NCBI GenBank assembly: GCA_024692715.1
Contig: JAILMH010000014.1
Coordinates: 1 to 64,000, forward strand
From: Lachnospiraceae bacterium
Lineage (GTDB): Bacteria > Bacillota > Clostridia > Lachnospirales > Lachnospiraceae
Length of the DNA stretch: 64,000 nucleotides
Direction of reading: 5' to 3'
The notes under the pieces are model-generated. The model ran no database searches. It was given only the letters and a program-made list of their open reading frames with translations, and was not told where the DNA came from. Position numbers and translations under genes: made by a program. Below are positions 2,117 through 24,157 of the stretch, in pieces (the stretch's first letter is position 1; each line of letters starts with the position of its first letter).

Positions 2117-2290
2117 GTGAACTACTCCGACTTATAGAAGTCGGAGCTTCCTGCTTCAACCACTACTGCGCTGGCTACGATGATACGTAACGGCTCGTCT
2201 TACACAGTGTCCACAGGCGTATAAGTTTGGGCTATTCCATCCCTACTGTCATATTTAGTTTCAGGCTACCTCAGTCAGTAGTCGTAATCC
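2117..2290 (-). ncRNA. Putative omega (right-end) RNA overlapping the tnpB 3' end and IS right end
   Basis: Position-based inference: TnpB guide RNAs come from the tnpB 3' end/RE. A GC-containing structured stretch and terminal hairpin are present. Confidence 0.45.
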
Positions 2291-3400
2291 TTCGTTTAGA
2301 ATGTTGATAGCAGCGTTCTGGTCACGGTTTATTGTGAGTCCGCAATCACATTTCATTGTACGGTTTTTCAAATCTTTCATCTCTGGATGGAGTTTTCCGC
2401 AACAATGACAGATTTGAGATGATGGATACCATTTATCTATTTTAATCAGATATTTGTTCCTATCGGATAACTTATATTCAAGTAGATTCAGGAACATTCC
2501 GTATCCATTATCGAGAGTGGCTCTGCCGTTACCAAAACCTTTGTTAGACATAGACTTCATGTTTAAGGATTCTACGCATACAACATCATACTGATTGGCT
2601 ATCTCAGTAGATATTTTATGTAGATTATCTAAACGCTGATTAGCAACATGTCTATGGATTTTATTGACCTTACGGAGCTGCTTCATGTAGTTATTGGACT
2701 TTACCTCATGTTTCTTAGAACCCTGCATGCGTGATAACTTGCGCTGTGCTTTAGCAAGCTTGTCATGACTCTCACGATAATACTTGTGATTAGTTCCTAC
2801 GTTACCGTTGCTATCTACATATAAGCCATCAGAGGCATAGTCTAACCCAATAGCATTAGTTTTATCAGCCTTATAAGGATTTAAGACATTCTCAAACTCA
2901 AAAAGGATAGAGATATAATACTTACCATCAGATTCCTGCGATACAGTAGCTGACTTAATTACCCAACTATCATCAGGGATACGATGAATAACAACTTTTA
3001 CCTTTCCAATCTTAGGGAGTTTAATATAATTATTGTCTATGATAGCTACAGTTCCCTTTTGATTGTTTGTGGTATAGGATTTACGGCTATGCTTCGCAGA
3101 CTTGAATTTAGGAAATCCGTTTTTCTTTTTGCGGGATTTACTAAATGTATTGCGAAATGCCGCCTGTAAATCCATCTGTTTGTTAGCAAGAGCGAGACTG
3201 TCAACCTCTTTGAGATATGGATAGTCTTTCTTGTATTTAGCGGGTGTGACGGTAGGAAACTTACCAGTTAGCTTATAACCTTCAATCTTATCAGAAAGCA
3301 TAAGATTGTAGACCTTACGGCAACAGCCAAAGGTTTTAGCAAACATAATACTTTGTTCAGTTGTGGGGTATACTCTGTACTTGATTGCTTTGTTTGCCAT
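2261..3400 (-). CDS. tnpB: IS605 OrfB / TnpB RNA-guided nuclease
   Basis: 379 aa; RuvC-like acidic residues in GLDYASDG, VCVESLNMK and NRDQNAAINI; zinc finger CHCCGK...CDCG. Confidence 0.92.
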   Translation of the reverse strand: MANKAIKYRVYPTTEQSIMFAKTFGCCRKVYNLMLSDKIEGYKLTGKFPTVTPAKYKKDYPYLKEVDSLALANKQMDLQAAFRNTFSKSRKKKNGFPKFKSAKHSRKSYTTNNQKGTVAIIDNNYIKLPKIGKVKVVIHRIPDDSWVIKSATVSQESDGKYYISILFEFENVLNPYKADKTNAIGLDYASDGLYVDSNGNVGTNHKYYRESHDKLAKAQRKLSRMQGSKKHEVKSNNYMKQLRKVNKIHRHVANQRLDNLHKISTEIANQYDVVCVESLNMKSMSNKGFGNGRATLDNGYGMFLNLLEYKLSDRNKYLIKIDKWYPSSQICHCCGKLHPEMKDLKNRTMKCDCGLTINRDQNAAINILNEGLRLLTEVA

Positions 3401-5607: not shown

Positions 5608-6588
5608 TTATGCCTTTACAAGCTCTTTTTCAGTCTCGGCAGACTCCATTGCAGGATAAATAGGTTTAATGAAATCCCTATATTTTGCCTTACGTGTCTT
5701 GAACTCATCGCTGTTCTTCTTAAGCTCATCAAGACGGCCCTCATTGTACTGAATATCCTCACCGTGTTTCATTTTTCCGCTGATGGTATCGTGTGCAAGT
5801 GCATACTGCTCCTCAGGGTAGTTAATGACGATCTTGCCGTCTCTTACCTCAAGCTCACCCTCCATACCGCAGAGTCCACATATAGCATGTGTTGTACCCG
5901 GCTCGATATAGAAGTTATTCATATGGCAGTGAGGACATACGCCTTCAGGTCCCTGCCACTTTGCATTCGGGATATCCTCTGCAGCCTTTGCAAGATTAAT
6001 ACCGATCTGATGAGCACGTGCAAGTGCCTCATCATCCATAAGAATTGTCTTTGACCATTGGAATTTATCATTGTCAATGACCTTCCACATAGGGCTCATT
6101 GCAAGCATTCCGTGGTCCATCTGTACAAGTGAGCCCCAGTCAGAGCCGCCTACAGCCATGAATGAGATCACCTTATCCTTCATGAAGCGAGGGTCGATAC
6201 CCTTTCCTCCGTTCTTCTTGTTAAGTTCATCTGCGATCATAAGATTTCCGCGATCCATAGATGGTCCGAAACGATCACAGATAGTGTGAATGATACCCGG
6301 AACACCGTTTTCAAAGATCGGTGATGTCATAATGATTCCATCAGCATCAAGCATCTTATTAAGTACCCAAAGGAAATCATCCTTCTGAACACAGATTCTG
6401 CCCTTTCCGCCCATCATAGCCTTTACACATGCGATACAGCCTGTGCAGCTCTTGATGGTGATGTTATGGTGAAGGTTGATGAACTCGATCTCAGCTCCTG
6501 CCTCCTTAGCACCCATAAGTGCTTCCTTACACATTGCATCATTAGAACCATTAAGTGTTCCGGATGAAATTCCTAATACTTTAGCCAT
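5608..6588 (-). CDS. Iron-sulfur flavoprotein / NADPH-dependent FMN reductase with C-terminal Cys motifs
   Basis: 326 aa; flavodoxin-like N-terminus MAKVLGISSGTLNGSN, CTGCIACVKAMMGGKGRICVQKDD, plus a CPHCH...CGLCG zinc-ribbon-like region. Confidence 0.8.
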   Translation of the reverse strand: MAKVLGISSGTLNGSNDAMCKEALMGAKEAGAEIEFINLHHNITIKSCTGCIACVKAMMGGKGRICVQKDDFLWVLNKMLDADGIIMTSPIFENGVPGIIHTICDRFGPSMDRGNLMIADELNKKNGGKGIDPRFMKDKVISFMAVGGSDWGSLVQMDHGMLAMSPMWKVIDNDKFQWSKTILMDDEALARAHQIGINLAKAAEDIPNAKWQGPEGVCPHCHMNNFYIEPGTTHAICGLCGMEGELEVRDGKIVINYPEEQYALAHDTISGKMKHGEDIQYNEGRLDELKKNSDEFKTRKAKYRDFIKPIYPAMESAETEKELVKA

Positions 6589-6671: not shown

Positions 6672-7835
6672 TCAGAAACGTCCAACCCTGGTGAGTTTCT
6701 TAGGAAGTTTGATAGAACCATCATTAAGTACGATCGCATCCTCGTCACAGGCTTCGACACACTTGCCGCAGGCACTGCACATATCCGGATCGATCATATA
6801 GATAAATTTCTTTTTGCCCTCGATCGCCATCTCATCACACTCGTCCTCGCAGCCTCCGCATCCTGTGCAAAGTGTAGGATCAATGCAGTATGACTTCTTT
6901 GAAAATGCTGCACAGACACCTGCGCTGCACTTCTTTCTGACAATGTGCTCCTCAAATTCATCTCTAAAAGCTTCAACTGCACTGACAGCTGTGAGCGCCA
7001 TGTTCTGACCAAATGAACAGAACGCCCCGATGTTGATGAGCGGGCCTATATCATTGACCATATCAAGGTCTTCTTTTTTGCCTTTTCCAAGTGAGATATC
7101 GTTAAATATCTCTGAAAGATGCCATGAACCTTCACGACAGAGAACACACTTGGCACAGGAAAGCTCCTTTGCCCTTGTCAATGTCCTGGCAGCCTCAGAT
7201 ACCATACAGCATTTTTCCGTGTAAAGAGTTATGCTGTCTGAAAGGTAAGAATATTCGATCCGGAATTCCTTTGAAGCCATGAATTTACCACTTACTCCGC
7301 CGAAGAGATATCCCTTTGCTTCGCCAAGCTCCGCAAAAGAATCTATCGGACAGACCATGAGACTGCATTTTCCTGCTTCATTAAGGCAGATAAGCTTCAC
7401 TTCTGTATTAAGACCTGCAAGCCTTAAAAGTGTTTCTGCGTCAGTAATGACTTCAGCTCTTCCATCCATTCCCTGAGAAGTAAATTCTTTATATAAAGGC
7501 TCTGAACGGAGCTCACCTCTCTCCAGCAGTCTTCCGACCGCTGACTCTTCCCTTAATACAGGGTTGGGATCATGTTCTATCACCTTTGCACCTTCGATTT
7601 CAAAATCAATAGATGCAGGCTTCAGTAAAATAAGCTCTTCAGCCTTAATTTTTTCTGAAAGAGACTTGAAAGCCTCCTTAAGCTCACTTCCGTATTTTCC
7701 GACGATCAGGCTGCTCAAGCAGTTTTCCGGATCATCACAGGAAAGATTCAGGATAAGTCTGGCATTTTCATGCTCCGATGCATCAGCTATAAGTGCATCC
7801 ATATCCACGCCGTTTTTATTAAATACCTTCATCAC
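6672..7835 (-). CDS. NuoF-related Fe-S protein (SLBB/4Fe-4S domain + two C-terminal ferredoxin clusters)
   Basis: 387 aa; CAKCVLCREGSWHLSEIF, ICSFGQN-like segment and two CxxCxxC ferredoxin motifs (CTGCGGCEDECDE, CSACGKCVEACDE). No GRGGAGFPTG FMN-binding motif. Confidence 0.75.
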   Translation of the reverse strand: MMKVFNKNGVDMDALIADASEHENARLILNLSCDDPENCLSSLIVGKYGSELKEAFKSLSEKIKAEELILLKPASIDFEIEGAKVIEHDPNPVLREESAVGRLLERGELRSEPLYKEFTSQGMDGRAEVITDAETLLRLAGLNTEVKLICLNEAGKCSLMVCPIDSFAELGEAKGYLFGGVSGKFMASKEFRIEYSYLSDSITLYTEKCCMVSEAARTLTRAKELSCAKCVLCREGSWHLSEIFNDISLGKGKKEDLDMVNDIGPLINIGAFCSFGQNMALTAVSAVEAFRDEFEEHIVRKKCSAGVCAAFSKKSYCIDPTLCTGCGGCEDECDEMAIEGKKKFIYMIDPDMCSACGKCVEACDEDAIVLNDGSIKLPKKLTRVGRF

Positions 7836-9985
7836 TCAGCCTTCTCCTTTCCCTGATAATCATTCCAGAATTTCTGCGGAGCAAGGTCGCAACGAAGATC
7901 ACACTGAAGACATCTAGATGCCTCACAACGTGCCATTTCCTCGTCAAAGCCGTAGTCCATAGGACCTGCGGTCTTGTACTCTGCAACTCTCTTTGGTGCA
8001 GGTACTACTCTCGGTGCTGTACGCTCCTTATCTCCAAAATTCTCGACCTTACCAAGATGAGGGTCTCTGAACTGCTTAGGTGCAAGGGCCTCTTCGATAT
8101 TTCCCTCACCGCCAAGGTATTTATCAATGGCGATGATAGAATCCCTTGCTGCCGCAATGGCTGCTATGACTGATCTTGTTCCTGTCACACAGTCACCCGC
8201 TGCCCAGATACCTTCAACAGATGTTTCACCGTCAGGTCCCTGTGCTGCAACATAATTACCATGTGTAAGTGCAAGTCCAAACTTCTCCTCTTCCATAGGA
8301 ATAGACGGTCTCTGACCTGTTGCAAAAATAACGGTGTCAGCCTCAAGTATCTCTTCTGTACCCTCAAGCTTATCGAAGACCATACGGCCATTTTCCTTAC
8401 GGAAATTGCCGACACTCTGGATAAGTACGCCTGTGCAGTGACCATTTTCGCCCTTTATTTCAGGGAAGGTCTTTGAATTATGAAGTACCACTCCTTCTTC
8501 CTCTGCCCATGAACGCTCTTCATCAGAAGCTGTCATCGCATCATAAGCCTCAAGACATGCCATATCAACTGTTTTCGCACCAAGTCTGAAAGCCGCACCG
8601 GTGCAGTCGATAGCTACATTTCCGCCGCCAAGGACCACAACATGCTCACCGACCTCTGCTGTACCATTTTCGAAATCTCTTAAGAAATCAGTATTTACCT
8701 TAACGCCTTCAAGATCATTTCCGGGAAGCGGAAGTCTTGCTCCGACATGTGTTCCAAGTGAAACAAATACAGCATCATATCCCTGCTTCAAAAGCTCAGG
8801 AGCATTCTCCACCTTTGTATTATTCTTAACTTCAACATCTCCGGCTTCCAGTACTGTCTGAACCTCATCATCGACAACCTCACGAGGCAGACGATATCCA
8901 GGAATACCGTATCTCATCTGGCCTCCAAGCTTTTCCTGTGCTTCAAAGATCGTGATGGAATGACCAAGTTTAGCTCCATAATAGGCAACTGTAAGTCCGG
9001 CAGGACCACCGCCTATAACAGCGATCTTTTTACCTGTTGCAGGCTTATGGAAGGCAAGCTTCTTCCATTCTCCGTCATCATGCTCGGCGGCAAATCTCTT
9101 CAAATTCCTGATAGAGACAGCTTCATTGAGATAATGATGTTTACATGCACTTTCGCAGTTGTGAACACATATATATCCAAGAGCGTGCGGGAAAGGAACC
9201 TTTTCGCGGATAACTGCATTTGCAGCCGCATAGTTTCCCTGATTTATAAATCTTATATACTCCGGAACATTTACATGAGCCGGGCACTCACTTCTGCATG
9301 GGACAAATCCCTCTTCTCTTGTTTTACCAAGACGTGCATCTTCGATCTCTTTATATTCACGGATAGAGCCTGTCGGGCAGACCTCAACACAGGCTGTGCA
9401 GAAGCGGCATCCACCCTTTTTAAGATTTTCTCCGTCGATCACGACCTTCTGTCTGCCGTTTACCTTCTTAAATTTAAGTACTCCGACTCCTCTCACCTCA
9501 TTGCAGACTCTCACGCATCTTCCACAGAGAATGCAGCGGTGCATTTCATGAAGGATGATAGGATTTGTCGTATCCTCTTTGCAGTTGATAGGATTTGCTT
9601 TAAGCTTTCTTCCTGTATCTCCTACATACTGTGAGATCGAGGCAAGCTGACACTTACCAAATTTAGGGCAGCCCGTGCACTCTGACGGATGTGTTTTGAA
9701 CATGAAATCACAGCTAAGCTTTCTTATCTTTTCTGCAGTTTCATCCTTTGTGTTTACAACCATTCCGTCTTTACATTTTTCGGTACAGGAAGTTACGACA
9801 CCGTCAACTCCTTCGATACCTACAACGCACATACGGCATGAGCCTTCCGGATGTAAATTCTCATGACTGCATAAATGTGGAATATAGATCCCATTAGCCA
9901 GTGCAGCATCGAGAATCGTTGTATCTGATGTTGTTTTGATGGTAACGCCGTCAATGACAAGCGTTACCTCCTTTGCTTCACTCAT
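7832..9985 (-). CDS. NAD(P)H-dependent Fe-S oxidoreductase: HydA/NuoG-like 2Fe-2S + 4Fe-4S N-terminus fused to a GltD-like FAD/NAD(P) domain
   Basis: 717 aa; CSHENLHPEGSCRMCVVG 2Fe-2S, HPSECTGCPKFGKCQL, ferredoxin CILCGRCVRVC, then GGGPAGLTVAYYGA and VVLGGGNVAIDCTGAAFRLGAKTV. Confidence 0.85.
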   Translation of the reverse strand: MSEAKEVTLVIDGVTIKTTSDTTILDAALANGIYIPHLCSHENLHPEGSCRMCVVGIEGVDGVVTSCTEKCKDGMVVNTKDETAEKIRKLSCDFMFKTHPSECTGCPKFGKCQLASISQYVGDTGRKLKANPINCKEDTTNPIILHEMHRCILCGRCVRVCNEVRGVGVLKFKKVNGRQKVVIDGENLKKGGCRFCTACVEVCPTGSIREYKEIEDARLGKTREEGFVPCRSECPAHVNVPEYIRFINQGNYAAANAVIREKVPFPHALGYICVHNCESACKHHYLNEAVSIRNLKRFAAEHDDGEWKKLAFHKPATGKKIAVIGGGPAGLTVAYYGAKLGHSITIFEAQEKLGGQMRYGIPGYRLPREVVDDEVQTVLEAGDVEVKNNTKVENAPELLKQGYDAVFVSLGTHVGARLPLPGNDLEGVKVNTDFLRDFENGTAEVGEHVVVLGGGNVAIDCTGAAFRLGAKTVDMACLEAYDAMTASDEERSWAEEEGVVLHNSKTFPEIKGENGHCTGVLIQSVGNFRKENGRMVFDKLEGTEEILEADTVIFATGQRPSIPMEEEKFGLALTHGNYVAAQGPDGETSVEGIWAAGDCVTGTRSVIAAIAAARDSIIAIDKYLGGEGNIEEALAPKQFRDPHLGKVENFGDKERTAPRVVPAPKRVAEYKTAGPMDYGFDEEMARCEASRCLQCDLRCDLAPQKFWNDYQGKEKAE

Positions 9986-10014: not shown

Positions 10015-11469
10015 TTAGTCTTCCTGAGCGTATTCAGCCGCAGAAGAGCCTGCGAAACGACCTGTGTTAATGCAGTAACCCATTGTATTACCAGGCATAA
10101 GGAACATGTATGAATCTCCGTAAATAGTACATGTATCTGTACCTGCAGCGAAAAGTCCCGGAACCTTCTCCCATTCCTGTGTAAGAACCTGAGCATCCTC
10201 ATTGATCTTGATTCCGCCAAGTGTACCATAAGCGCCCGGTCTGAACTTAGCTGCATAGAATGGAGCCTTTTCGATAGGTCTCATGTATTTTGAAGGCTTG
10301 TAGAAAAGGTTATCTCCTGTCTCACACATATCGTTATACTCGTCGATAGTATCCTGAAGTGCCTCTGCATCAACTCCGAGCTTCTCAGCCAGTTCTTCGA
10401 TAGTGTCAGCCTTGACTACATCCGGGTTATCATTTGCGATAGAGTTATCAACTGCCTCAGCAAAGTCAGCCACATCATCCGGATGATGTACGAAGTTAAC
10501 AACGTCAACACCCTTCTTCATGTAGTACTTAGCAATCTTAGAATCAATGATAGAGAATGCGATAGCGTCCTTCTGGAATGAAATAGCATTACCTGTGAAG
10601 GTTGTATTCTGCATCTGCTCTTCGTCGATAAATCTCTGACCGAGCTTATTAACAAGAAGGTTAGGCTGCATAAATACTGCCGGAATGCAGTCCGGGCCTG
10701 CATCAGAGTTAGGAAGGATATACATCATCTCAACGTTCATAGGTGTTGTACCTGCGCCTGCCTCTGCTGCCATCTTGATTCCATCACCCTTAAGACCCGG
10801 AATCGCAAAGTTAAACATATTCTTCTGGAATTCATAGCCTGTACGCTCTTTGATCATCTGTGGGTTATCACCACATCCGCCTGTGGCAATTACTACTGCC
10901 TTACAATCACAGCGAACTTCTTCTCCTGAAGCATCTGTTCCGATAACTGCGCAGATCTTTCCGTCATCACTCTTAACGATCTTCTTTGCAGGTGTCTCCA
11001 TAAGGAACTCTGTTCCATTTTCCTCAGCGTACTCACGGATATGTTTATTCATGATCGCACCGCCATTACGTCCGATACCACCATTTACAGCAACAATGTG
11101 CCAGGTCTCATGAGATTTCGGGAAATATTTGTAGGCACCGGCAAATTCAACACCGCAGGATTCCTCGAGCCACTTAATGGTATCTGCTGAATTCTCGAAA
11201 TATTTCTTTACCATGCGTGCATCACTTCTCCAGTGCGTGTACTCCATAAATTCCTTGAAAGCACTCTTAACATCGATGTCTACCATCATGTCCTGCTGAT
11301 GCTTTGTACCGATTCCAAGAGGTCCCATACCCATGTTTGCAGCACCACCTGATACATTGGCCTTTTCAAATACAACTACCTTTGCTCCATCCTCTGAAGC
11401 CTGTGCTGCTGCAGAAAGGCCTGAAGGGCCTGATCCTATTACAACAACGTCTGCTGTTAATGTTTTCAT
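10015..11469 (-). CDS. FAD-dependent oxidoreductase (FAD_binding_2 / fumarate-reductase-like), cytosolic
   Basis: 484 aa; VVVIGSGPSGLSAAAQASEDGAKVVVFEKANVSGGAANMG; no signal peptide, no FMN-binding domain. Confidence 0.85.
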   Translation of the reverse strand: MKTLTADVVVIGSGPSGLSAAAQASEDGAKVVVFEKANVSGGAANMGMGPLGIGTKHQQDMMVDIDVKSAFKEFMEYTHWRSDARMVKKYFENSADTIKWLEESCGVEFAGAYKYFPKSHETWHIVAVNGGIGRNGGAIMNKHIREYAEENGTEFLMETPAKKIVKSDDGKICAVIGTDASGEEVRCDCKAVVIATGGCGDNPQMIKERTGYEFQKNMFNFAIPGLKGDGIKMAAEAGAGTTPMNVEMMYILPNSDAGPDCIPAVFMQPNLLVNKLGQRFIDEEQMQNTTFTGNAISFQKDAIAFSIIDSKIAKYYMKKGVDVVNFVHHPDDVADFAEAVDNSIANDNPDVVKADTIEELAEKLGVDAEALQDTIDEYNDMCETGDNLFYKPSKYMRPIEKAPFYAAKFRPGAYGTLGGIKINEDAQVLTQEWEKVPGLFAAGTDTCTIYGDSYMFLMPGNTMGYCINTGRFAGSSAAEYAQED

Positions 11470-11489: not shown

Positions 11490-11936
11490 TTAGCCTTCTA
11501 ATGCCACATCAATTTTATTGTTAAGCCATGCTGCCGGTCGTTCGATGATAAGCCCTGTCACAAGCCCCACAAGATGAAGCTGCAGATAGGTGCCAAGCCA
11601 CGCCGGTACTGTAGAAGCATTTATTCCCACATTGACCATTGCCATGCAAAAGCTGACAACTGTAACATTTATTGCATTTATAATAAAATTCCTTGATAAA
11701 AATTCCAGGAGGCTTCCATCGGATGAATGGCAGACATCCTTTGAAAACCACTGACCTATCGCTCCCACCGGAATAATGGCCAGTTCAATAGTGTTGATCG
11801 TGAACGCGCACGCACAGCCTTTCACCCATCCCTGCAGTGTATCTCCACCTGCAAGAAACGTAGCCGCTGTATTTATCGAAAGCGCCATGATCAGATTTAC
11901 GATCGCATTCCATCTGAAAAAAGATTCCTTACTCAT
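11490..11936 (-). CDS. Small integral membrane protein of unknown function
   Basis: 148 aa, about four hydrophobic segments; 4-bp overlap with the upstream hydrolase gene supports an operonic gene. Confidence 0.65.
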   Translation of the reverse strand: MSKESFFRWNAIVNLIMALSINTAATFLAGGDTLQGWVKGCACAFTINTIELAIIPVGAIGQWFSKDVCHSSDGSLLEFLSRNFIINAINVTVVSFCMAMVNVGINASTVPAWLGTYLQLHLVGLVTGLIIERPAAWLNNKIDVALEG

Positions 11937-12892
11937 TCCTTCTCAAACCTCCGGGTAAAGAAATCAGCTGATATCTCAAGAGCTGTTTTTGCCCAGACTC
12001 TGAAGTAAGGATCGTGAAGTTTCCGCTTATTCATATCAGAAACCTCATAGGACGGCTCATGAGCCGCATCCTCGATATATCCATGATGAGTTCCGGGTAT
12101 AGCTGCAGCATATGTATCTACTCCCGCTGCCCTAAGATGTTCGCCATACTCAAGTCCTTCATCCTTTAGTGCATCCCTGTCTGCTGTTAAGATAAGCGTG
12201 GCAGCAGTTCCTTCAAGTTCTTCACGTTTCGCCATTATAGGTGAAACATAGCTCAGAGCTCTCTCCTCTTTTTTGGAGTAAAGCTCTGTAAAGCTCTTCA
12301 TGACCGCCGCATCCATATCCACGTCATAGTGCTTCTTTTCTGAAGGCATCCTTGTCGAATCCAGATATGGATAATGCAGCGCCTGTGCTGTCACATTGAA
12401 ATCTCCTGATTTCTTTGATCTAAGTGATATGGCGGCAGCGAGTGTGGCTCCGGCCGAGAAACCGATAAGTCCGATCTTTTCCATATCAAATCCATATTCA
12501 GCAGCATGTTTCTTAAAGAAAAGTATCGTATCATAAACATCATCTAACGGTGCAGGATACGGAAATTCAGGCGATAATCTATAGTTAATACCCACAACAT
12601 TTACGTCAGCATTTTCTTTAATGCTCTCGCAGATAGAATCATCCTTCTCCGCATCACCCAGAATAAAACCGCCTCCATGCATTTCAAAAACAACCGGTCT
12701 GTTTTTTCCTTCAGCTCTGTGAATATAGACTGTAAGCTCTCTCTCCTTAAGAGTGATGGATGTCTTTTCACCCTTCAGCAGACTGTCATCAATGATCCCT
12801 CTCATGTATTTTCTTACACTTGGAACCATATCCAAAAAACCTCTAAGCTCCGGATCTGTGATCTCAGGGCAGAGTCTCACTCGCTTTGCCAT
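11933..12892 (-). CDS. Alpha/beta hydrolase (HSL/acetyl-esterase-like)
   Basis: 319 aa; FEMHGGGFILGD oxyanion motif, IGFSAGATLAAA nucleophile elbow, C-terminal THHGYIED. Confidence 0.85.
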   Translation of the reverse strand: MAKRVRLCPEITDPELRGFLDMVPSVRKYMRGIIDDSLLKGEKTSITLKERELTVYIHRAEGKNRPVVFEMHGGGFILGDAEKDDSICESIKENADVNVVGINYRLSPEFPYPAPLDDVYDTILFFKKHAAEYGFDMEKIGLIGFSAGATLAAAISLRSKKSGDFNVTAQALHYPYLDSTRMPSEKKHYDVDMDAAVMKSFTELYSKKEERALSYVSPIMAKREELEGTAATLILTADRDALKDEGLEYGEHLRAAGVDTYAAAIPGTHHGYIEDAAHEPSYEVSDMNKRKLHDPYFRVWAKTALEISADFFTRRFEKE

Positions 12893-12895
12893 TTT

Positions 12896-14014
12896 TTACT
12901 CCTCTGTTTCAGGCTCGAAATCAAAACCTGTCCAAACAGGCTCTCCTGTGTACTCCTTTGTTTCCTCAACTCCATCAAGTGCGCGGATCGCTCCTGATGC
13001 AAGGGCCTCCATTTCAAAGTCACCTCCGTAAACTATGAACGGAGCGATCCAGCCTGCATATTTCTTAACAAGTTCAACGAACATCTCATCTTTTGAACAT
13101 CCGCCTGTGAGAACGACTGCGTCAACCTTTCCTTCCATTACGCAGGCATATGAGCCAATGTACTTGGCTAGCTGATAAGCAAAATTCTTCATCACAAGAG
13201 TTGCCCACTTATCGCCCTTTTCGATTCTTTCATCGATTTCCATCATATTGTCTGTTCCAAGAAGTGAAATAAGTCCGCCTGTCTTTGAAACCTTCTTTTT
13301 CATCTCATCAAGTGTGTACTTTCCTGAGAAGCACATCTTGATCACAGGAAGAAGCGGAACATAACCTGATCTATTTGGAGCCATAGGACCGTCTCCATTG
13401 AGAACATCATTTCCGTCAACGATCCTTCCGTGCTTCTGAGCTGTTATTGAAAGTCCTCCGCCCACATGACATACAACCAGGTTACAATCCTCATATTTCT
13501 TACCAAGTTCCTTTGCTGCTCTCATGGCAACTTCCTTCTGGTTAAGAACATGCACATGTGACTCACGGTAAATACCCTTGATTCCGCTTATTCTTGCAAC
13601 ATCATCAAATTCATCAACATCAGGCGGATTTACAAGAAATGCAGGCTTCCCTGTCTCTTCTGCAAAGGCACCGATTATCTGGGCTCCAAGGATTGCCGGA
13701 TGCTCCATGAGTCTGCCTGAGCTGCAGTCTTCAAGTATCTTCTCATTTACAGGGAAGATTCCGCCCGGAGTAGATGCAAGTCCGCCTGAGTATGCTGCAA
13801 AAGCATCCATATCATTGATATCAATATTGTTTTTCTTTAATTCATCAAGAATCGTCTCGACTCTGTAAGGCTTCTGCTCACTTACTCTTTCAAAGCTTTT
13901 AAGCTTTTCAGGGTCATGCTGGACATTTGCCTTAAAAAGTCTTGTTTCACCGTCAAATACAGCGAGCTTTGTGGATGTTGATCCAGGGCTCAGCGTAAAA
14001 ATCTTATATCCCAT
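12896..14014 (-). CDS. buk: Butyrate kinase (acetokinase family)
   Basis: 372 aa; MGYKIFTLSPGSTSTKLAVFDGE, NPPDVDEFDDVARISG, HVGGGLSITAQKHGRIVDGNDVLNGDGPMAPNRSG. Confidence 0.92.
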   Translation of the reverse strand: MGYKIFTLSPGSTSTKLAVFDGETRLFKANVQHDPEKLKSFERVSEQKPYRVETILDELKKNNIDINDMDAFAAYSGGLASTPGGIFPVNEKILEDCSSGRLMEHPAILGAQIIGAFAEETGKPAFLVNPPDVDEFDDVARISGIKGIYRESHVHVLNQKEVAMRAAKELGKKYEDCNLVVCHVGGGLSITAQKHGRIVDGNDVLNGDGPMAPNRSGYVPLLPVIKMCFSGKYTLDEMKKKVSKTGGLISLLGTDNMMEIDERIEKGDKWATLVMKNFAYQLAKYIGSYACVMEGKVDAVVLTGGCSKDEMFVELVKKYAGWIAPFIVYGGDFEMEALASGAIRALDGVEETKEYTGEPVWTGFDFEPETEE

Positions 14015-14031
14015 TTGTATGTTATCTCCTA

Positions 14032-15039
14032 TTAGTCAATACTCGCGTTCGCTGCTGCAATAACGAGCATTGCGATATCGCCTACGATCTCTTCTACAGA
14101 TGCACCTCTTGATGAATCTGCAACAGGACGGGCAAAGCCTGAAAGTGTATGACCATAACCCTTACCACCGGCAAAGAGCTGTACCATCTTGATGCCGATG
14201 TTCGCTGCATTGAGCTCAGGGAAGATCAGTACATTTGCTCTTCCTGCAACCTCTGATTCTCTCTTGACCTTCTTTGCTGCAACCTCAGGCTTGATTGCCG
14301 AATCAAGCTGGAACTCGCCATCGATCTTAAGATCAGGACGACGTTCCTTTGAAATCCTCAAAGCCTCAAGTATCTTCTCTACGCTTGAAGCTGTACCTGA
14401 TCCACAGGTAGAAAAACTTAAGAATGCGCATCTTACATCCCAGCCGAGAAGTGCCTTTGCATTATCACAGGTTGCTATAGCGATAGAAGCAAGCTCTTCT
14501 GATGTAGGCTCTGCATTAAGTCCACAGTCACCCATTACCATTATGTTTCCTTCAGGGCCATTGAAATTCGGAATCTCTGTAACAGCCATGATAGAAGGAA
14601 CATCTACACCATCCTGCATTCCAATAGTCTGCTGGGCACAGATAAGAACATCACCTGTTGTATTTGTATGACCGCAGAATGTACAGTCTACATCGCCGAC
14701 TGCTTCCATGATCATTGCGTAATACATAGGGTTCTTCATCTTACGCTTGGCACCTTTTTCAGAAAGGATGAGCTTTGGATAAGACATATATCTTGCTGCA
14801 AGGGCTTCCTTGGCGGCCTCATCTGTATTATCAACTATCTCCATTCCTTCGAGAGATACCCCTGCTCTTTCAGCTGTTTCTTTTATAATTGCCGGATCGT
14901 TTACAAGGACCGGAACACCGATTCCGTCATCAAGGATCTTTCTGGCAGCCAGAAGGGTTTTGTCTGCTTCACATTCCGGAAGAGCAACTCTCTTGGGAGC
15001 AGCCTTGGCTTTATCTATTAAAGTTTCAATAAGACTCAT
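14032..15039 (-). CDS. Phosphate acetyl/butyryltransferase
   Basis: Pta/Ptb family: KRVALPECEADKTLLAARKIL, MVQLFAGGKGYGHTLSGFARPVADSSRGA. Start set at MSLIETL because the longer ORF overlaps acpS. Confidence 0.88.
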   Translation of the reverse strand: MSLIETLIDKAKAAPKRVALPECEADKTLLAARKILDDGIGVPVLVNDPAIIKETAERAGVSLEGMEIVDNTDEAAKEALAARYMSYPKLILSEKGAKRKMKNPMYYAMIMEAVGDVDCTFCGHTNTTGDVLICAQQTIGMQDGVDVPSIMAVTEIPNFNGPEGNIMVMGDCGLNAEPTSEELASIAIATCDNAKALLGWDVRCAFLSFSTCGSGTASSVEKILEALRISKERRPDLKIDGEFQLDSAIKPEVAAKKVKRESEVAGRANVLIFPELNAANIGIKMVQLFAGGKGYGHTLSGFARPVADSSRGASVEEIVGDIAMLVIAAANASID

Positions 15040-15052
15040 TTTTTTCTCCACT

Positions 15053-15427
15053 TTATGCTTCAAACACCGCAAAAGCGACAGCATAATCTCTTTCATAGGA
15101 AAGGGATATCTGGATATTTTTCACTCCGCGCTTTTGTGCCTCTTTCTTCATGTTTCCATAAAGATTTACATGCGGTGCACCATTTTCGTCATTTAGTATT
15201 TCGATCTCAGACATCAGCACATGATCACCTGACATCCCGAACGCCTTGAATACCGCCTCTTTACCGGCAAATCTCGTGGCATAATAATCAAGTGGAAGCT
15301 CCCTTTTTTTAGCATCACTGATCTCTGCTTTTGAATATGTCTTAACGAGAAACGGATCATCAGTTTTCAGGTATTCAGGTTGAAGCTGACCGATACGAAG
15401 TATATCTGTACCAACGCCAATTACCAT
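15053..15427 (-). CDS. acpS: Holo-[acyl-carrier-protein] synthase
   Basis: 124 aa; MVIGVGTDILRIGQ...FLVKTYSKAEI...YYATRFAGKEAVFKAFG. Confidence 0.92.
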   Translation of the reverse strand: MVIGVGTDILRIGQLQPEYLKTDDPFLVKTYSKAEISDAKKRELPLDYYATRFAGKEAVFKAFGMSGDHVLMSEIEILNDENGAPHVNLYGNMKKEAQKRGVKNIQISLSYERDYAVAFAVFEA

Positions 15428-15487: not shown

Positions 15488-17668
15488 TTATCTATATGTA
15501 TAATCTCCGGCCTTATACTTAGGCGGGATAACAGGAACCTGAATGAATGACTCATATCTTCCGCCTGTATAAATGATCTGGTTTCCATGGTTATCTGTAT
15601 CCCATGCAAGCGGCTCGAACCAGCCTTCGCGGATGTAACGTCCTGCGATCTGGATTCTAAGCTTCTGACCCTTGTGCCAGATTCTTGATGAAGGTACGAT
15701 CTCGATATCTACCGGTACGATCTCACCCGGCTGAACCTTAAGCTCTCTCTTGTGTGCCATTACCGGCTGAACAAGCTGTCCCTTAACATACTGTGACTCT
15801 TCCTTACTGAGCTCTCTATGCGAGATTCTGCACTTGCCCCATGCTCCAGGATGATGCTCACCGAGAGTATCCCACGGGATCCAGTTGCCGTTCTCATCAG
15901 CCTTCTGGATATTGATGAACATATCCATATCGTTGTAAGCCTCTGCTGCAACATAAAGGTGAAGATAAGCATAACCCGTAAGCTCTGTATCCTCATTAAA
16001 GGTCATATCAAACTCAACCTGCTGAGTATTTCCGTCGTACTTAACGCTTGCTTCTGTAGAAACAGGCTGGTCGTGCATTGTGAGATTCTTCGGATCAGAT
16101 GCATCAAGGTAAAACTTCTTATATTCGGTTCTCTTAAGAGGGAACTCATTCTCAGGACGACGTACCTGATAGTCACAGTCGTAAGCATCCATAACGTCGA
16201 TCCTTACTCGTGGTGTCATCTCCCAGCCGTTGTGAATTCCCTTAAGATATCTGTCATAGAACTTCTTAAGGTCCTCAAGATTCTCAGGAGTGTATGTATC
16301 AGGCCACTCGAAATCTCTGTGTGCTCTCATCCACTTAAGTCTTGACTTACACTTACGGAAAGCCTGGAATGAACCTCTGAGGTGGAAGTGTGAGAAACCT
16401 GCTGTCTGATATACAGGAATTGTTACCTTGCTGAAATCAGGTCTCTTGTCTTCCCAGTAACCATTCATGAGAGGATACTTAATAGCCATATCAACCTGGC
16501 TGTCTACTCCGCCTGTGCCTGTAACCTGTGCAGAAATGAACTTATTGAATGAAAGTGCCGGTACACCGCCTTCGTAGAAGGACTCTCTGTAAAGGTCTGT
16601 TGTGCACTCCCAAGGTGCGATACACTTAAGGTGAGGTGGCTGCATAGCTGCGATACCCCACTGATGCATTGCTACACCTGAGTTACCTGACATACCGATG
16701 TTGCCGTTTGACCACCACTGCTGAGCTGCCCACTCAATGAAGTCATAACCGTCTTCACGGTCCTGATGTGTGAACATGTGAACGTTACCCTCAGAATGAC
16801 CTGCACCTCGTACATCTACATTAGCCACTGCATATCCCTGATAGCACCAGTACATTGGATCAGGAGACTCGAATTTGGCAAGCTTTGATACTGTGTGAGG
16901 CGGAACACCCATGATCTGCCATTCTGACATTCCCTCGCCAGGTCTCTTACCAAACCATGACCATGAAACGATACAAGGATATTTCTTTGTTGTATCTGCC
17001 GGACGGAAGATATCACAGTAGATCGTCACTCCGTCTCTCATCTTTACAGGTACATCCTGATCACACATGATCCCCGGAGCTGCCTCATAGGTTCTCTGCT
17101 TGAACTCAGGGCAGAATCCCTGTCCCATTCTTGCCATAGGATCATCTGAAGCCGAAAGGTCCAGAGAAGGATCAACTGAAGTTGGCTTTCTTGCAACCAT
17201 GTAAACTGCCTCAAGTTCCTCGCCTGCAAATGTCTCCTTAAGAGTAAATCTCTCTCTTGCTGCAAGCTCATCATCATGATCTGATTTCTCAGCCTGTGCT
17301 GCCATTGATCCTGCCGGTGCTGCTGCAGGTGTTTCAACTGCTGCTGCAACAGGAGCTGCCTCATTAGAAACTGCTGCAGAAGAAGCAGGGGCTGCGCAAT
17401 CCTCAGATTCATCCCACTCTTCTTCAAGGCACTCAGTAACAACATACTTTACAGCCTCTCCGAAAGTCTTCTGACGACGGAAATCCATATAAGAGATCTC
17501 AATGTCGAATTCATCCTCAAGGAATGTTGTGATCTGTGAAATCTGCACTGACTTTGCCTGCAGATCCTCTGCGAAACGTGTTGCTTCGTTCAGTTCTTCT
17601 GCGTTCTTGCCGAAAAGGCCTGCGGCTCTTTCAACAAGCTTACTCAGAACATCTTGTCTGATACTCAT
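15488..17668 (-). CDS. Acyl carrier protein domain fused to a CocE/NonD-family (X-Pro dipeptidyl-peptidase-like) hydrolase
   Basis: 726 aa; N-terminal ~90 aa ACP fold with candidate phosphopantetheine Ser40 (EDLQAKSVQISQITTFLEDEFDIEI), Ala/Pro-rich linker, then MRDGVTIYCDIFRPADTTKKYP, IGMSGNSGVAMHQW nucleophile motif and C-terminal jelly-roll-like region. Confidence 0.85.
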   Translation of the reverse strand: MSIRQDVLSKLVERAAGLFGKNAEELNEATRFAEDLQAKSVQISQITTFLEDEFDIEISYMDFRRQKTFGEAVKYVVTECLEEEWDESEDCAAPASSAAVSNEAAPVAAAVETPAAAPAGSMAAQAEKSDHDDELAARERFTLKETFAGEELEAVYMVARKPTSVDPSLDLSASDDPMARMGQGFCPEFKQRTYEAAPGIMCDQDVPVKMRDGVTIYCDIFRPADTTKKYPCIVSWSWFGKRPGEGMSEWQIMGVPPHTVSKLAKFESPDPMYWCYQGYAVANVDVRGAGHSEGNVHMFTHQDREDGYDFIEWAAQQWWSNGNIGMSGNSGVAMHQWGIAAMQPPHLKCIAPWECTTDLYRESFYEGGVPALSFNKFISAQVTGTGGVDSQVDMAIKYPLMNGYWEDKRPDFSKVTIPVYQTAGFSHFHLRGSFQAFRKCKSRLKWMRAHRDFEWPDTYTPENLEDLKKFYDRYLKGIHNGWEMTPRVRIDVMDAYDCDYQVRRPENEFPLKRTEYKKFYLDASDPKNLTMHDQPVSTEASVKYDGNTQQVEFDMTFNEDTELTGYAYLHLYVAAEAYNDMDMFINIQKADENGNWIPWDTLGEHHPGAWGKCRISHRELSKEESQYVKGQLVQPVMAHKRELKVQPGEIVPVDIEIVPSSRIWHKGQKLRIQIAGRYIREGWFEPLAWDTDNHGNQIIYTGGRYESFIQVPVIPPKYKAGDYTYR

Positions 17669-17711: not shown

Positions 17712-18896
17712 TTAAACATTTACCGTTTCTCTCTTTTTGCCGAAAGCACTTGCTATCATGTGGATCACAAACGGGATCACTATGACAACTATGCAGGCAA
17801 AGCCGAGATAACTGTATCCCTTCTTGACCAGAGGGAGAAGGCCGAACTGTGATATTGAAAATGTTACGAGCGTACAAACAAGCGCTGTAACAACTGTTCG
17901 CATTGTGCGTTTTTTTGCTGAAACTTCAGGTTCCTCTTTTTTCTCAAGTCCTGTGACTACGCGGTTTACAAAGCCGACTATCATATTTACTCCTGAGAAA
18001 ACAGAACCGATTATTATCAAAAGTGAAACTACAGGTGCCAGTGCAGATGGAAGTACACCTTCCTGAGCAAAGAGCAGTGTATAGACAGAGTAGTTAGGAA
18101 GCTCAGGGTTAAGAGCTACTGCCATAAGTCCAAGAGTCACCACCGTTATAACTATGGTATTGATGAAGAAACCGTATATCATCGAAGTCGCACACTGCTT
18201 TTTATCTGTAAATTTCTGTGCATGCTGTACATAAAGCCCTATCGAAGCCACATGGTATGCTCCATAGAGAAGTGAGAACCAGAGTGCACTTCCAAATGTT
18301 CCGCTCTCAGTTGAGCCAACCGGAAGCTGACCTGCTGAAAGAGCACTGATAGAAGCTGTTATTGAATCCCACTGGGCAATGATATTTGGAATGAAAACCA
18401 AAAGAATGCCTATGATAAGAACATAGCTGACTATTGTCGCTGCCTTTCTGATCATATCTGTGTTCATCATCGAGATTCCAAAAATAAAAACTCCGACTAT
18501 TGCCGTACAGAGCATATATGGAATACCTGTAAGCTCATGCAGAGTTGCTCCGCCTGTTGCAAACGCGATCGAAGGTGCAAGCAGTATGAGCATGAAGTAA
18601 ACCACTTCATAAAGGTTAGAAAATATGATCTTAAATCTTCCATAGAACTGGTCTGTAAAATCACGATAATTTGATGTTTTGTGCTCAAACGCAAACTTCA
18701 GGGCATACCACTGGAAAAATGCCTGAAAAAGCTGAGCTATCGCCGGTGTTATGAGACACCAGATACCGAAATTTATAAAATACTGATACAACTGAGTTCC
18801 TGAAGCAAAGCCGCCTCCGAACTGACTTGTAAACCAGACAAATCCAACGCCCAGCGCAACGCTGGCCTGAGAAGCCTTATTTACTGATTTATCCAT
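17712..18896 (-). CDS. YkvI-like membrane transporter (APC-superfamily type)
   Basis: ~394 aa polytopic protein (VGFVWFTSQFGGGFASGTQLYQYF...). Start set at MDKSVNK. Confidence 0.7.
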   Translation of the reverse strand: MDKSVNKASQASVALGVGFVWFTSQFGGGFASGTQLYQYFINFGIWCLITPAIAQLFQAFFQWYALKFAFEHKTSNYRDFTDQFYGRFKIIFSNLYEVVYFMLILLAPSIAFATGGATLHELTGIPYMLCTAIVGVFIFGISMMNTDMIRKAATIVSYVLIIGILLVFIPNIIAQWDSITASISALSAGQLPVGSTESGTFGSALWFSLLYGAYHVASIGLYVQHAQKFTDKKQCATSMIYGFFINTIVITVVTLGLMAVALNPELPNYSVYTLLFAQEGVLPSALAPVVSLLIIIGSVFSGVNMIVGFVNRVVTGLEKKEEPEVSAKKRTMRTVVTALVCTLVTFSISQFGLLPLVKKGYSYLGFACIVVIVIPFVIHMIASAFGKKRETVNV

Positions 18897-19023
18897 TAGA
18901 ATTATTCTCCTCCATTGCCTTATGATGCATCGATACATCTAACTGACAGTAAAGATTGTATGAAAATTTAACAATCTTTCCAATGGAATTGAATTTAAAT
19001 AAATACAATACAACTTATGAATT

Positions 19024-19109: not shown

Positions 19110-20717
19110 ATGAAGATTTGTACATTTTTTCAATTATTATGTAATGATCACATATGTGATTGTGATTTTGCTGTTCCTGATGCTGATATTTACACCTTTA
19201 AGCCGCTCTATCACAACCAGGCAAGCCTGAAAAAGATACTTTATCTGACCAATACAGAACAACTTCCTGTATTTGATCCTAATGAGACCCATAATATTCT
19301 CTTCTTCCACAGATGGCCCGATGTTGATATTTTGAGAGAAAAATATCCGAAGAGCAATTTCATCTTCTGGAACGAGGAAGGAGTAGGTGCTCTATTTGAA
19401 GTTTTCGATGTGGTCTCAGATATGTTTCTGCAGGAAAATCGCTACACTGCTCAGCTAAACGAGCTTTCAACCATTTCAAATCAGGGCCGCGGGCTCAGAA
19501 ATCTTGTGGAAAATGCCAGCCGTATCATCGGCTCGCCTATAAATATTCTGGACAGCCACTATAGAGTCATAGGAACTGCCGGAACTTTTATATGGGAAAA
19601 TGATGAAGATCCTGAAGATCATGTAAAAAATGGTCAGGTTACTTACTCTACCCTTGAGCGTATGAAGCGTGACCGGGTGATCGAGCGTTTACGTGAGGCG
19701 CCAGATTATCTCCTGTATGAGAAACCAAAGGACGAAACAAGAGCCTGGGTAAATATGATGGTCTTTGTGAGCGGAGGTATAGAAGCCGCTGAAATCGGCA
19801 TTCAGGAGTCCGATCACAAATTCAACTACTATGAAATAGAACTGATAAAATTCTTCCGCCAGCTTGTCGCTTTTGAGATTGAAAAGGGAAATTTTTATAA
19901 AAATGATTATGGACTGCTGCACTCTATCTTCGTTTCTGAGCTCATTCAGCAGAGATTCGTAAATGAAGATCTTATCCACGAGAGAATGGCCAATCTCTTA
20001 TGGAAAGAAAAACCATGGTACTTTGTGATGACAGTGATACCTGCCGGAGATATACCTCCTCACTACCAAAAGATCGCAGAGATCTTTGCCCTCAATCTCT
20101 CAGGTTTACTTGGAGATACTGCACACTGGACGATCACAGACTCCAGCATCATTTTCCTTATAGGCTCAGATGACGACAATATAGAAAAATTCCGTGAAGG
20201 CGGAAGCATTGAAGACATGCTTAAGCTGAACAACAGCATAGGTGTTCTAAGTAATCCCTTCAACAACCTTATAAATACAAAGATCTACTACGAACAGACT
20301 ATGTCACTTATACGCATGAGGCATGGGATAAATGCCAACAGTTCAATATGGTTTTATTCCGATTACTATATTTACGATATTGCTGATGCACTTAGCTCGA
20401 TCAGAAATTTACGGGACTTTTATCACCCTTATATAATGCTGATAAAAAGATATGACGAAGAAAACAACACCCAGTATTTCGAAACTCTTTACGAGTATCT
20501 GGTAAATATCGACAATCCTACTGCCTGTGCCTATAATCTGCACGTGCACAAAAATACTCTTTATTATAGGATAAATAAACTAAAGGAATTATTTCCGATA
20601 GACCTGAATAATGGTCTTGAAAGACTGAGGATCCAACTCACAATGGAATTCATGAAGCTGGATCGCTCAAAAGAGACTGACTCGTCAGCCGATCATATTA
20701 AACCAGTCCTGTTATAA
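19110..20717 (+). CDS. PucR/CdaR-type transcriptional regulator
   Basis: 535 aa; C-terminal HTH ACAYNLHVHKNTLYYRINKLKELFPIDLNNGLERLRIQLTMEF. Confidence 0.85.
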   Translation: MKICTFFQLLCNDHICDCDFAVPDADIYTFKPLYHNQASLKKILYLTNTEQLPVFDPNETHNILFFHRWPDVDILREKYPKSNFIFWNEEGVGALFEVFDVVSDMFLQENRYTAQLNELSTISNQGRGLRNLVENASRIIGSPINILDSHYRVIGTAGTFIWENDEDPEDHVKNGQVTYSTLERMKRDRVIERLREAPDYLLYEKPKDETRAWVNMMVFVSGGIEAAEIGIQESDHKFNYYEIELIKFFRQLVAFEIEKGNFYKNDYGLLHSIFVSELIQQRFVNEDLIHERMANLLWKEKPWYFVMTVIPAGDIPPHYQKIAEIFALNLSGLLGDTAHWTITDSSIIFLIGSDDDNIEKFREGGSIEDMLKLNNSIGVLSNPFNNLINTKIYYEQTMSLIRMRHGINANSSIWFYSDYYIYDIADALSSIRNLRDFYHPYIMLIKRYDEENNTQYFETLYEYLVNIDNPTACAYNLHVHKNTLYYRINKLKELFPIDLNNGLERLRIQLTMEFMKLDRSKETDSSADHIKPVLL

Positions 20718-23630: not shown

Positions 23631-23667
23631 ATAAAAAAGTAGTGAAAACTTTTACATTTTCACTACT
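23631..23667 (-). terminator. Rho-independent terminator of the BMC islet
   Basis: AGTAGTGAAAA-CTTTTACA-TTTTCACTACT, 11-bp perfect stem overlapping the eutP stop codon, followed on the minus strand by TTTTTTAT. Confidence 0.85.
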
Positions 23668-24157
23668 CCCATGCATTTATACCGCACGCCTGCTTTCTTT
23701 TCGCCTCTTCAAGAGAAATATTTATACTATCCTCATCCAGATATTTGATCAGTGCCTCGACACCTTCTCTTGTCTTATTGTTTACCTCAAATATCCTCTC
23801 ACATCCGGCATTTTCCATCCACTGCCTAACCTTCGGAACATTTGCCAACGGAGAATCCACTTTTGTTATAATTCCTATGAACGGCCTGTTTATGCAGCAG
23901 TTACAGTTATTTCCAAATATGCTGAAAGGTTCATCTGCTGCACAAAGCATTGCCACCACATCTGCATCAAAGGAAAAGCACGCGAGCCCGGTCGAGGCAG
24001 ACTTGGTTTCCGCATATTCCCCCGGCGTATCTATCGTAGTATCTTCAGAATATGTATATTGGGTCTTTACATAATGAAGCTCCTCGCCTTTCATTGCCTG
24101 AGTCAATGAAGTTTTTCCGGCCTCACTTCTTCCCATAAGAAATAATCTTTTCATCAA
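23663..24157 (-). CDS. eutP: EutP/PduV-family microcompartment GTPase-like protein
   Basis: 164 aa; P-loop LMGRSEAGKTSLTQAMKG, IDTPGEYAE, GIITKVDSP. Confidence 0.85.
   Translation of the reverse strand: MMKRLFLMGRSEAGKTSLTQAMKGEELHYVKTQYTYSEDTTIDTPGEYAETKSASTGLACFSFDADVVAMLCAADEPFSIFGNNCNCCINRPFIGIITKVDSPLANVPKVRQWMENAGCERIFEVNNKTREGVEALIKYLDEDSINISLEEAKRKQACGINAWE

Follow-up and report, generated by a model that had tools for sequence, protein, structure and literature searches.

The operon and its surroundings

The window, by which we mean the whole stretch of 64,000 nucleotides of Lachnospiraceae DNA that was analysed, carries a minus-strand operon of mostly tightly spaced genes and a regulator gene divergent from it. 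A transporter-like gene is followed by a gene for an acyl carrier protein (ACP) fused to a hydrolase, by those for AcpS, a phosphotransacylase, a butyrate-kinase homologue and an HSL esterase, and then by reductase genes, where a small hydrophobic protein precedes the FAD reductase, two electron-transfer proteins and the FMN reductase:

19110..20717, plus strand: divergent PucR-type regulator (PF13556, E 2.9e-15; homologues in 18 loci)
17712..18938, minus strand: transporter-like membrane protein, in the operon direction (no Pfam match; orthologues in 12 loci)
15488..17668, minus strand: ACP-hydrolase fusion protein, 726 aa (reading frame and its coordinates verified)
15053..15427, minus strand: dedicated AcpS-type phosphopantetheinyl transferase (PF01648, E 1.5e-11; TIGR00516, 68.1 bits, above the cut-off of 59.8)
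14032..15039, minus strand: phosphotransacylase without the CoA-binding arginines (PF01515, E 1.1e-85)
12896..14014, minus strand: butyrate-kinase homologue (TIGR02707, 406 bits, above the cut-off of 289)
11933..12892, minus strand: HSL-type esterase (PF07859, E 1.5e-51)
11490..11936, minus strand: small hydrophobic, probably membrane protein (in several loci; no Pfam match above cut-off)
10015..11469, minus strand: FAD-dependent ene-reductase, flavocytochrome c / vinylphenol reductase-like (PF00890, E 8.4e-54)
7832..9985, minus strand: NuoG-like 2Fe-2S / GltD-like electron-transfer flavoprotein (Pfam and NCBIfam profiles)
6672..7835, minus strand: NuoF-C-terminal-like / ferredoxin electron-transfer protein (Pfam and NCBIfam profiles)
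5608..6588, minus strand: flavone reductase (FLR)-like FMN ene-reductase (PDB 7d38, E 3.9e-118; 58% identity)

The phosphotransacylase likely starts at the ATG at 15039; the listed reading-frame start, 15096, falls within acpS. On the FAD reductase the VprA model scored 340 bits, below its cut-off of 600. An IS605 OrfB/TnpB-like transposase gene (2261-3400) lies near the downstream end of the operon, and a EutP/PduV-like GTPase gene (23663-24157) is a lone one: the neighbours that were searched include no further microcompartment gene.

Across the 44 related loci scanned, a fixed gene set recurs that consists of ACP, hydrolase, in most loci AcpS, phosphotransacylase and a butyrate-kinase-like enzyme; 37 loci have the phosphotransacylase, 36 the kinase and 30 AcpS. 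The linkage of ACP, hydrolase, phosphotransacylase and butyrate kinase extends across Lachnospiraceae, Oscillospiraceae, Bacilli and Coriobacteriia. One locus (L093, 7331-12945) has ACP, hydrolase and butyrate-kinase homologue with an acetate-type CoA-transferase pair in the position of the phosphotransacylase, and a second hydrolase gene (13116-14960) follows that cluster. An initial annotation, made from the letters of the window, had named the neighbour of the fusion gene as an AcpS, which the TIGR00516 match confirms; the only other PF01648 match in the window genome is an Sfp-like frame of 206 aa. Since Pta, phosphobutyryltransferase-like and ACP genes are also present elsewhere in this genome, one ACP with the canonical DSL motif, the operon copies are extra, dedicated ones.

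Domain structure and active site of the fusion protein

The 726-aa protein, whose frame has a GGAGG ribosome site directly 5' of it, is an ACP domain joined by a disordered linker to a CocE/NonD-type serine hydrolase. Its features, all on the minus strand, are:

17429..17659, minus strand: ACP domain, aa 4-80, four-helix bundle (NF002150, E 4.6e-11; AlphaFold2 pLDDT ~90)
17549..17551, minus strand: Ser40, predicted phosphopantetheine site, AKS in place of DSL (invariant, 52/52)
17273..17422, minus strand: Ala/Pro-rich flexible linker, about aa 83-132 (residues 91-132 with AlphaFold2 pLDDT <50)
16520..17035, minus strand: Peptidase_S15/CocE alpha/beta-hydrolase domain, aa 212-383 (PF02129, E 7.9e-38)
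16679..16681, minus strand: Ser330, predicted nucleophile in a GNSG elbow (invariant, 42/42; aligns with the GVSY serine of 3ib3)
16607..16609, minus strand: Glu354, candidate triad acid, after the strand that follows the nucleophile strand (41/42; also in SACOL2612)
16319..16321, minus strand: His450, predicted catalytic base (41/41)
15542..16231, minus strand: PepX_C jelly-roll domain, aa 480-709 (PF08530, E 1.6e-29)

Profile scores for the ACP domain are modest: NF002150 matches residues 5-78 with 42.8 bits, below the model's own cut-off of 66, and PF00550 gives 16.5 bits on the whole protein, below its cut-off of 20.8, and 21.7 bits in a scan confined to residues 1-91. An AlphaFold2 model built from 44 family sequences, the modelling that the initial annotation had called for, folds both domains and leaves the linker disordered. 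The ACP bundle comprises helices 3-19, 40-54, 60-64 and 69-80, and helix II begins at Ser40. In the alignment this position is Ser in all 52 ACP domains of the relatives, each time with K or R before it; in place of DSL the fusion ACP reads KSV, with Lys39 at the position of the canonical Asp. For the hydrolase half, the TIGR00976 CocE_NonD model matches with E 4e-62 (211 bits, cut-off 66.3), and the closest fold match is S. aureus SACOL2612 (3ib3; target TM 0.85). The N-terminal ACP, the choice of Ser40, its non-canonical motif, the flexible Ala/Pro-rich linker and the CocE/NonD assignment, all read from the sequence beforehand, are thus borne out.

In E. coli AcpS, Arg14 presumably meets the Asp of the DSL motif. 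The equivalent of Arg14 is missing from most operon AcpS proteins, but the AcpS of Coriobacteriia and Bacilli keep it; for this reason the pattern is not taken as evidence for or against a co-varying contact between AcpS Arg and ACP Asp.

In the hydrolase, the Asp after strand 7, which is Asp259 in cocaine esterase, is not kept: the family has Ser/Asn-His at this position, and SACOL2612 also lacks the Asp. Glu354 is a candidate for the triad acid.

Distribution of the family

The 44 loci came from a scan of 84,980 genomes, which is not exhaustive because it was pattern-based. Of the 44 loci, 40 have an ACP fused to the hydrolase or encoded beside it, and in two of the other four a contig end truncates the locus, so the association of ACP and hydrolase is not chance. 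A single fused ACP occurs in 6 loci, or 7 if the window is counted; 15 have a fused tandem pair, with two ACP domains ahead of the hydrolase (L032-L034, L036-L044, L046, L048 and L049), and in 19 the ACP has a separate adjacent gene. In a maximum-likelihood tree of the hydrolases, all fused forms make up one fully supported clade nested among the separate-ACP forms. The initial annotation knew of no ACP-tethered member of the CocE/NonD enzymes: we found no published description of the architecture in the open-licence literature, where a subscription paper could be missed, and to this extent the claim stands, but the protein is not a one-off and belongs to a conserved family.

The cluster hosts include rumen Lachnospiraceae, Oscillospiraceae, Flavonifractor, Konateibacter, Slackia, Olsenella and Bacilli. 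A search of 60 kin genomes, of which 36 belong to the same genus, gave no full-length relative, and 391 genomes of the class gave only one other at 60% identity or more; the cluster is therefore patchy. The distant CocE homologues L094-L096 have no ACP and lie in other surroundings, where the operon genes are absent. Two clusters in MAGs labelled Chloroflexi (L046, L049) nest among those of rumen Lachnospiraceae, by transfer or mis-binning, and a Freyarchaeota MAG (L072, 8043-11542) has two tandem hydrolase homologues in which no ACP was detected.

The operon phosphotransacylase lacks two CoA-site arginines

An operon that makes acyl-ACP would be expected to have a phosphotransacylase independent of CoA. 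To test this, 38 operon phosphotransacylases were aligned with 26 ordinary Pta and 7 phosphobutyryltransferases. In the M. thermophila enzyme, Arg87 and Arg133 belong to a site that binds CoA (PMC6461089). Both are missing in 38/38 operon enzymes; among the ordinary Pta, R87 is present in 26/26 and position 133 is R in 24 and K in 2, and the phosphobutyryltransferases have R or K at 133 in 7/7. The catalytic Ser309 is kept in 38/38 operon enzymes and Arg310 in 37/38 (K once); position 316 is E in 37 and D in 1, where the controls mostly have D. The loss of the two arginines with Ser309 retained fits an acyl-ACP rather than an acyl-CoA substrate. By itself it is no proof of ACP use, since neither residue is strictly essential for catalysis in other Pta (PMC6461089), and it may represent one ancestral event because the operon enzymes are related. 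It is nevertheless the pattern expected of a phosphotransacylase specific for ACP, and we consider it quite likely that the enzyme acts on acyl-ACP made with the operon's ACP.

Possible links to flavonoid metabolism

A possible substrate is suggested by the reductase genes. The structure matched by the FMN gene, PDB 7d38, is the flavone reductase FLR of Flavonifractor plautii, and mutations at G106, W149, H271 and I275 strongly cut or abolish its activity (PMC7862272). All four of these residues are present in the window gene, which is predicted to encode an FLR-like flavone reductase; identity is 58% for the window and 63-71% for the loci L051, L052 and L069. HcrAB-type hydroxycinnamate reduction, the first lead for the FMN and FAD genes, was dropped once the FMN gene matched FLR. 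Of the 34 other cluster genomes, 22 have a gene at least 50% identical to FLR, against 3 of 290 genomes of the class (Fisher p 1.5e-22, inflated by relatedness). FLR is absent from the genomes of Slackia equolifaciens and of Bacilli with minimal clusters; flavones are therefore not the sole substrate, a warning that substrates vary among clusters.

Next to the Konateibacter cluster (L069, 296-8244) lie 2-hydroxyacyl-CoA dehydratase, CoA-transferase, acryloyl-CoA reductase-like and Etf-type genes, and parts of the dehydratase / acryloyl-CoA reductase-like set are also found beside the L050, L051 and L052 clusters. In Catenibacillus scindens, a phenyllactate arises from flavonol breakdown (PMC11170127), and by analogy the dehydratase set would be fitting for such a breakdown. 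Together, the FLR gene, its co-occurrence with the cluster and the dehydratase set point to flavonoids, with the dihydrochalcone C-C bond as the putative site of acyl capture.

The phloretin hydrolase family (PF18089) is likewise enriched in cluster genomes (9/35 against 6/291), and its presence in these nine counts against a flavonoid-cleaving role for the operon hydrolase. Speaking for such a role, the family has no match in the window genome, which is 90% complete, and 17 of the 23 cluster genomes with FLR lack it as well, although these genomes are mostly MAGs and maybe incomplete.

Proposed pathway and alternative explanations

Taking these observations together, we hypothesize that the fusion protein uses a hydrolase fold for ACP-dependent acyl transfer, serves ATP formation through acyl-ACP and acts on a flavonoid-derived substrate; judged from sequence and predicted structure, we give this statement as a whole a probability of about 0.5. 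AcpS would load phosphopantetheine onto Ser40. The substrate of the fusion protein would be imported or come from earlier steps, catalysed by the FLR-like enzyme and by the FAD reductase together with the electron-transfer proteins; the most likely candidates are dihydrochalcones and acyl-phloroglucinols derived from flavonoids, phloretin among them. Ser330 would attack the substrate carbonyl, the phloroglucinol-type ring would leave, and the aryl-propionyl group would pass from Ser330 to the ACP thiol and not to water. The phosphotransacylase would then convert acyl-S-ACP and phosphate to acyl phosphate, from which the butyrate-kinase homologue would form ATP and a free acid for export. The tandem ACPs and the flexible linker fit a carrier that reaches both the hydrolase and a separate enzyme. 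It had been suggested earlier that the carrier thiol may serve as acceptor, giving acyl-S-ACP. Such a product is likely, given a probable consumer in the phosphotransacylase without CoA arginines, whereas the substrate and the transfer step are put forward here as proposals. The pathway probably runs in the ATP-forming direction. The specific form of substrate-level phosphorylation in which flavonoid C-C cleavage delivers the acyl group to the ACP thiol, and a CoA-independent phosphotransacylase and kinase complete the route to ATP, is offered tentatively, at somewhat less than even odds.

The same carrier and ATP route might instead start from an amide or from an ester such as a hydroxycinnamoyl ester, with the ene-reductases reducing the released aryl-acrylate. 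CocE/NonD enzymes are esterases and amidases, and we know of none that cleaves a C-C bond; the likeness of the FAD reductase to vinylphenol reductase, the HSL esterase in the operon and the lack of FLR with some minimal clusters also speak for such a substrate. That esterase, however, means that an ordinary esterase is already separately encoded, and the FMN gene is specifically FLR-like, down to the substrate-contact residues of FLR, so we regard an ester or amide as rather unlikely. The direction could also be the reverse, with kinase and phosphotransacylase spending ATP to load an acid onto ACP and the hydrolase passing the acyl group to an acceptor in biosynthesis or detoxification. The reactions of kinases and phosphotransacylases are reversible, as are those of this type of hydrolase. 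Traffic from acid through acyl phosphate to acyl-ACP is known in Firmicutes as FakAB/PlsX (PMC12594616). Against this, the catabolic-type reductases, the lactate-type MFS transporters of several loci and the PucR-type regulators suggest catabolism, which makes loading of the carrier distinctly unlikely.

Two further explanations concern the ACP itself. It could be an apo docking domain rather than a thiol carrier, attached to an ordinary water-using hydrolase; the missing DSL motif would allow this, modification of Ser40 being a prediction, but a serine invariant in 52/52 domains, a dedicated AcpS in most loci and a neighbouring phosphotransacylase without CoA-binding arginines make it very improbable. 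A role for the fusion protein in fatty-acid or polyketide metabolism, such as that of a thioesterase for acyl-ACP, has the ACP domain in its favour but is hardly credible: the genome has other ACP genes elsewhere, one with the canonical motif, and the operon showed neither a ketosynthase nor any other gene of fatty-acid synthesis.

With ACP-dependent acyl transfer from a flavonoid as the preferred reading, the operon suggests a so far undescribed route to ATP from plant polyphenol breakdown. If this is true, capture of the acyl group on ACP would let anaerobes gain ATP directly and would help to explain growth on dietary and forage polyphenols, by a route to acyl phosphate that bypasses CoA and has a carrier, loader, transferase and kinase of its own. 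The operon would provide a set of genetic markers by which gut and rumen bacteria that use polyphenols could be recognised.

Comparison with known systems

The fusion protein resembles CocE/NonD hydrolases such as cocaine esterase and SACOL2612 in fold, nucleophile Ser, His and PepX_C domain, and differs from them in being fused to, or paired with, an ACP; relative to cocaine esterase the canonical Asp is replaced, a loss that SACOL2612 shares, with Glu354 as candidate. Phloretin hydrolase (Phy, PF18089) shares the proposed reaction site, the C-C bond of phloretin-type acyl-phloroglucinols, but is of an unrelated family and conserves no energy, since water cleaves the flavonoid skeleton and the bond energy is lost. 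The F. plautii FLR is a counterpart of the operon FMN gene, with all four critical residues in common, and the available part of its report describes no ACP-hydrolase system. FakAB/PlsX likewise interconverts acid, acyl phosphate and acyl-ACP, but its protein families are unrelated and it belongs to phospholipid synthesis. A dedicated ACP is also used in anaerobic catabolism by citrate lyase and malonate decarboxylase, whose prosthetic group, enzymes and chemistry are different. The route from acyl thioester through acyl phosphate to ATP by Pta or phosphotransbutyrylase with acetate or butyrate kinase uses the same enzyme families as the operon, which is set apart by a phosphotransacylase without R87 and R133 (38/38) and by the dedicated ACP and AcpS encoded alongside it.
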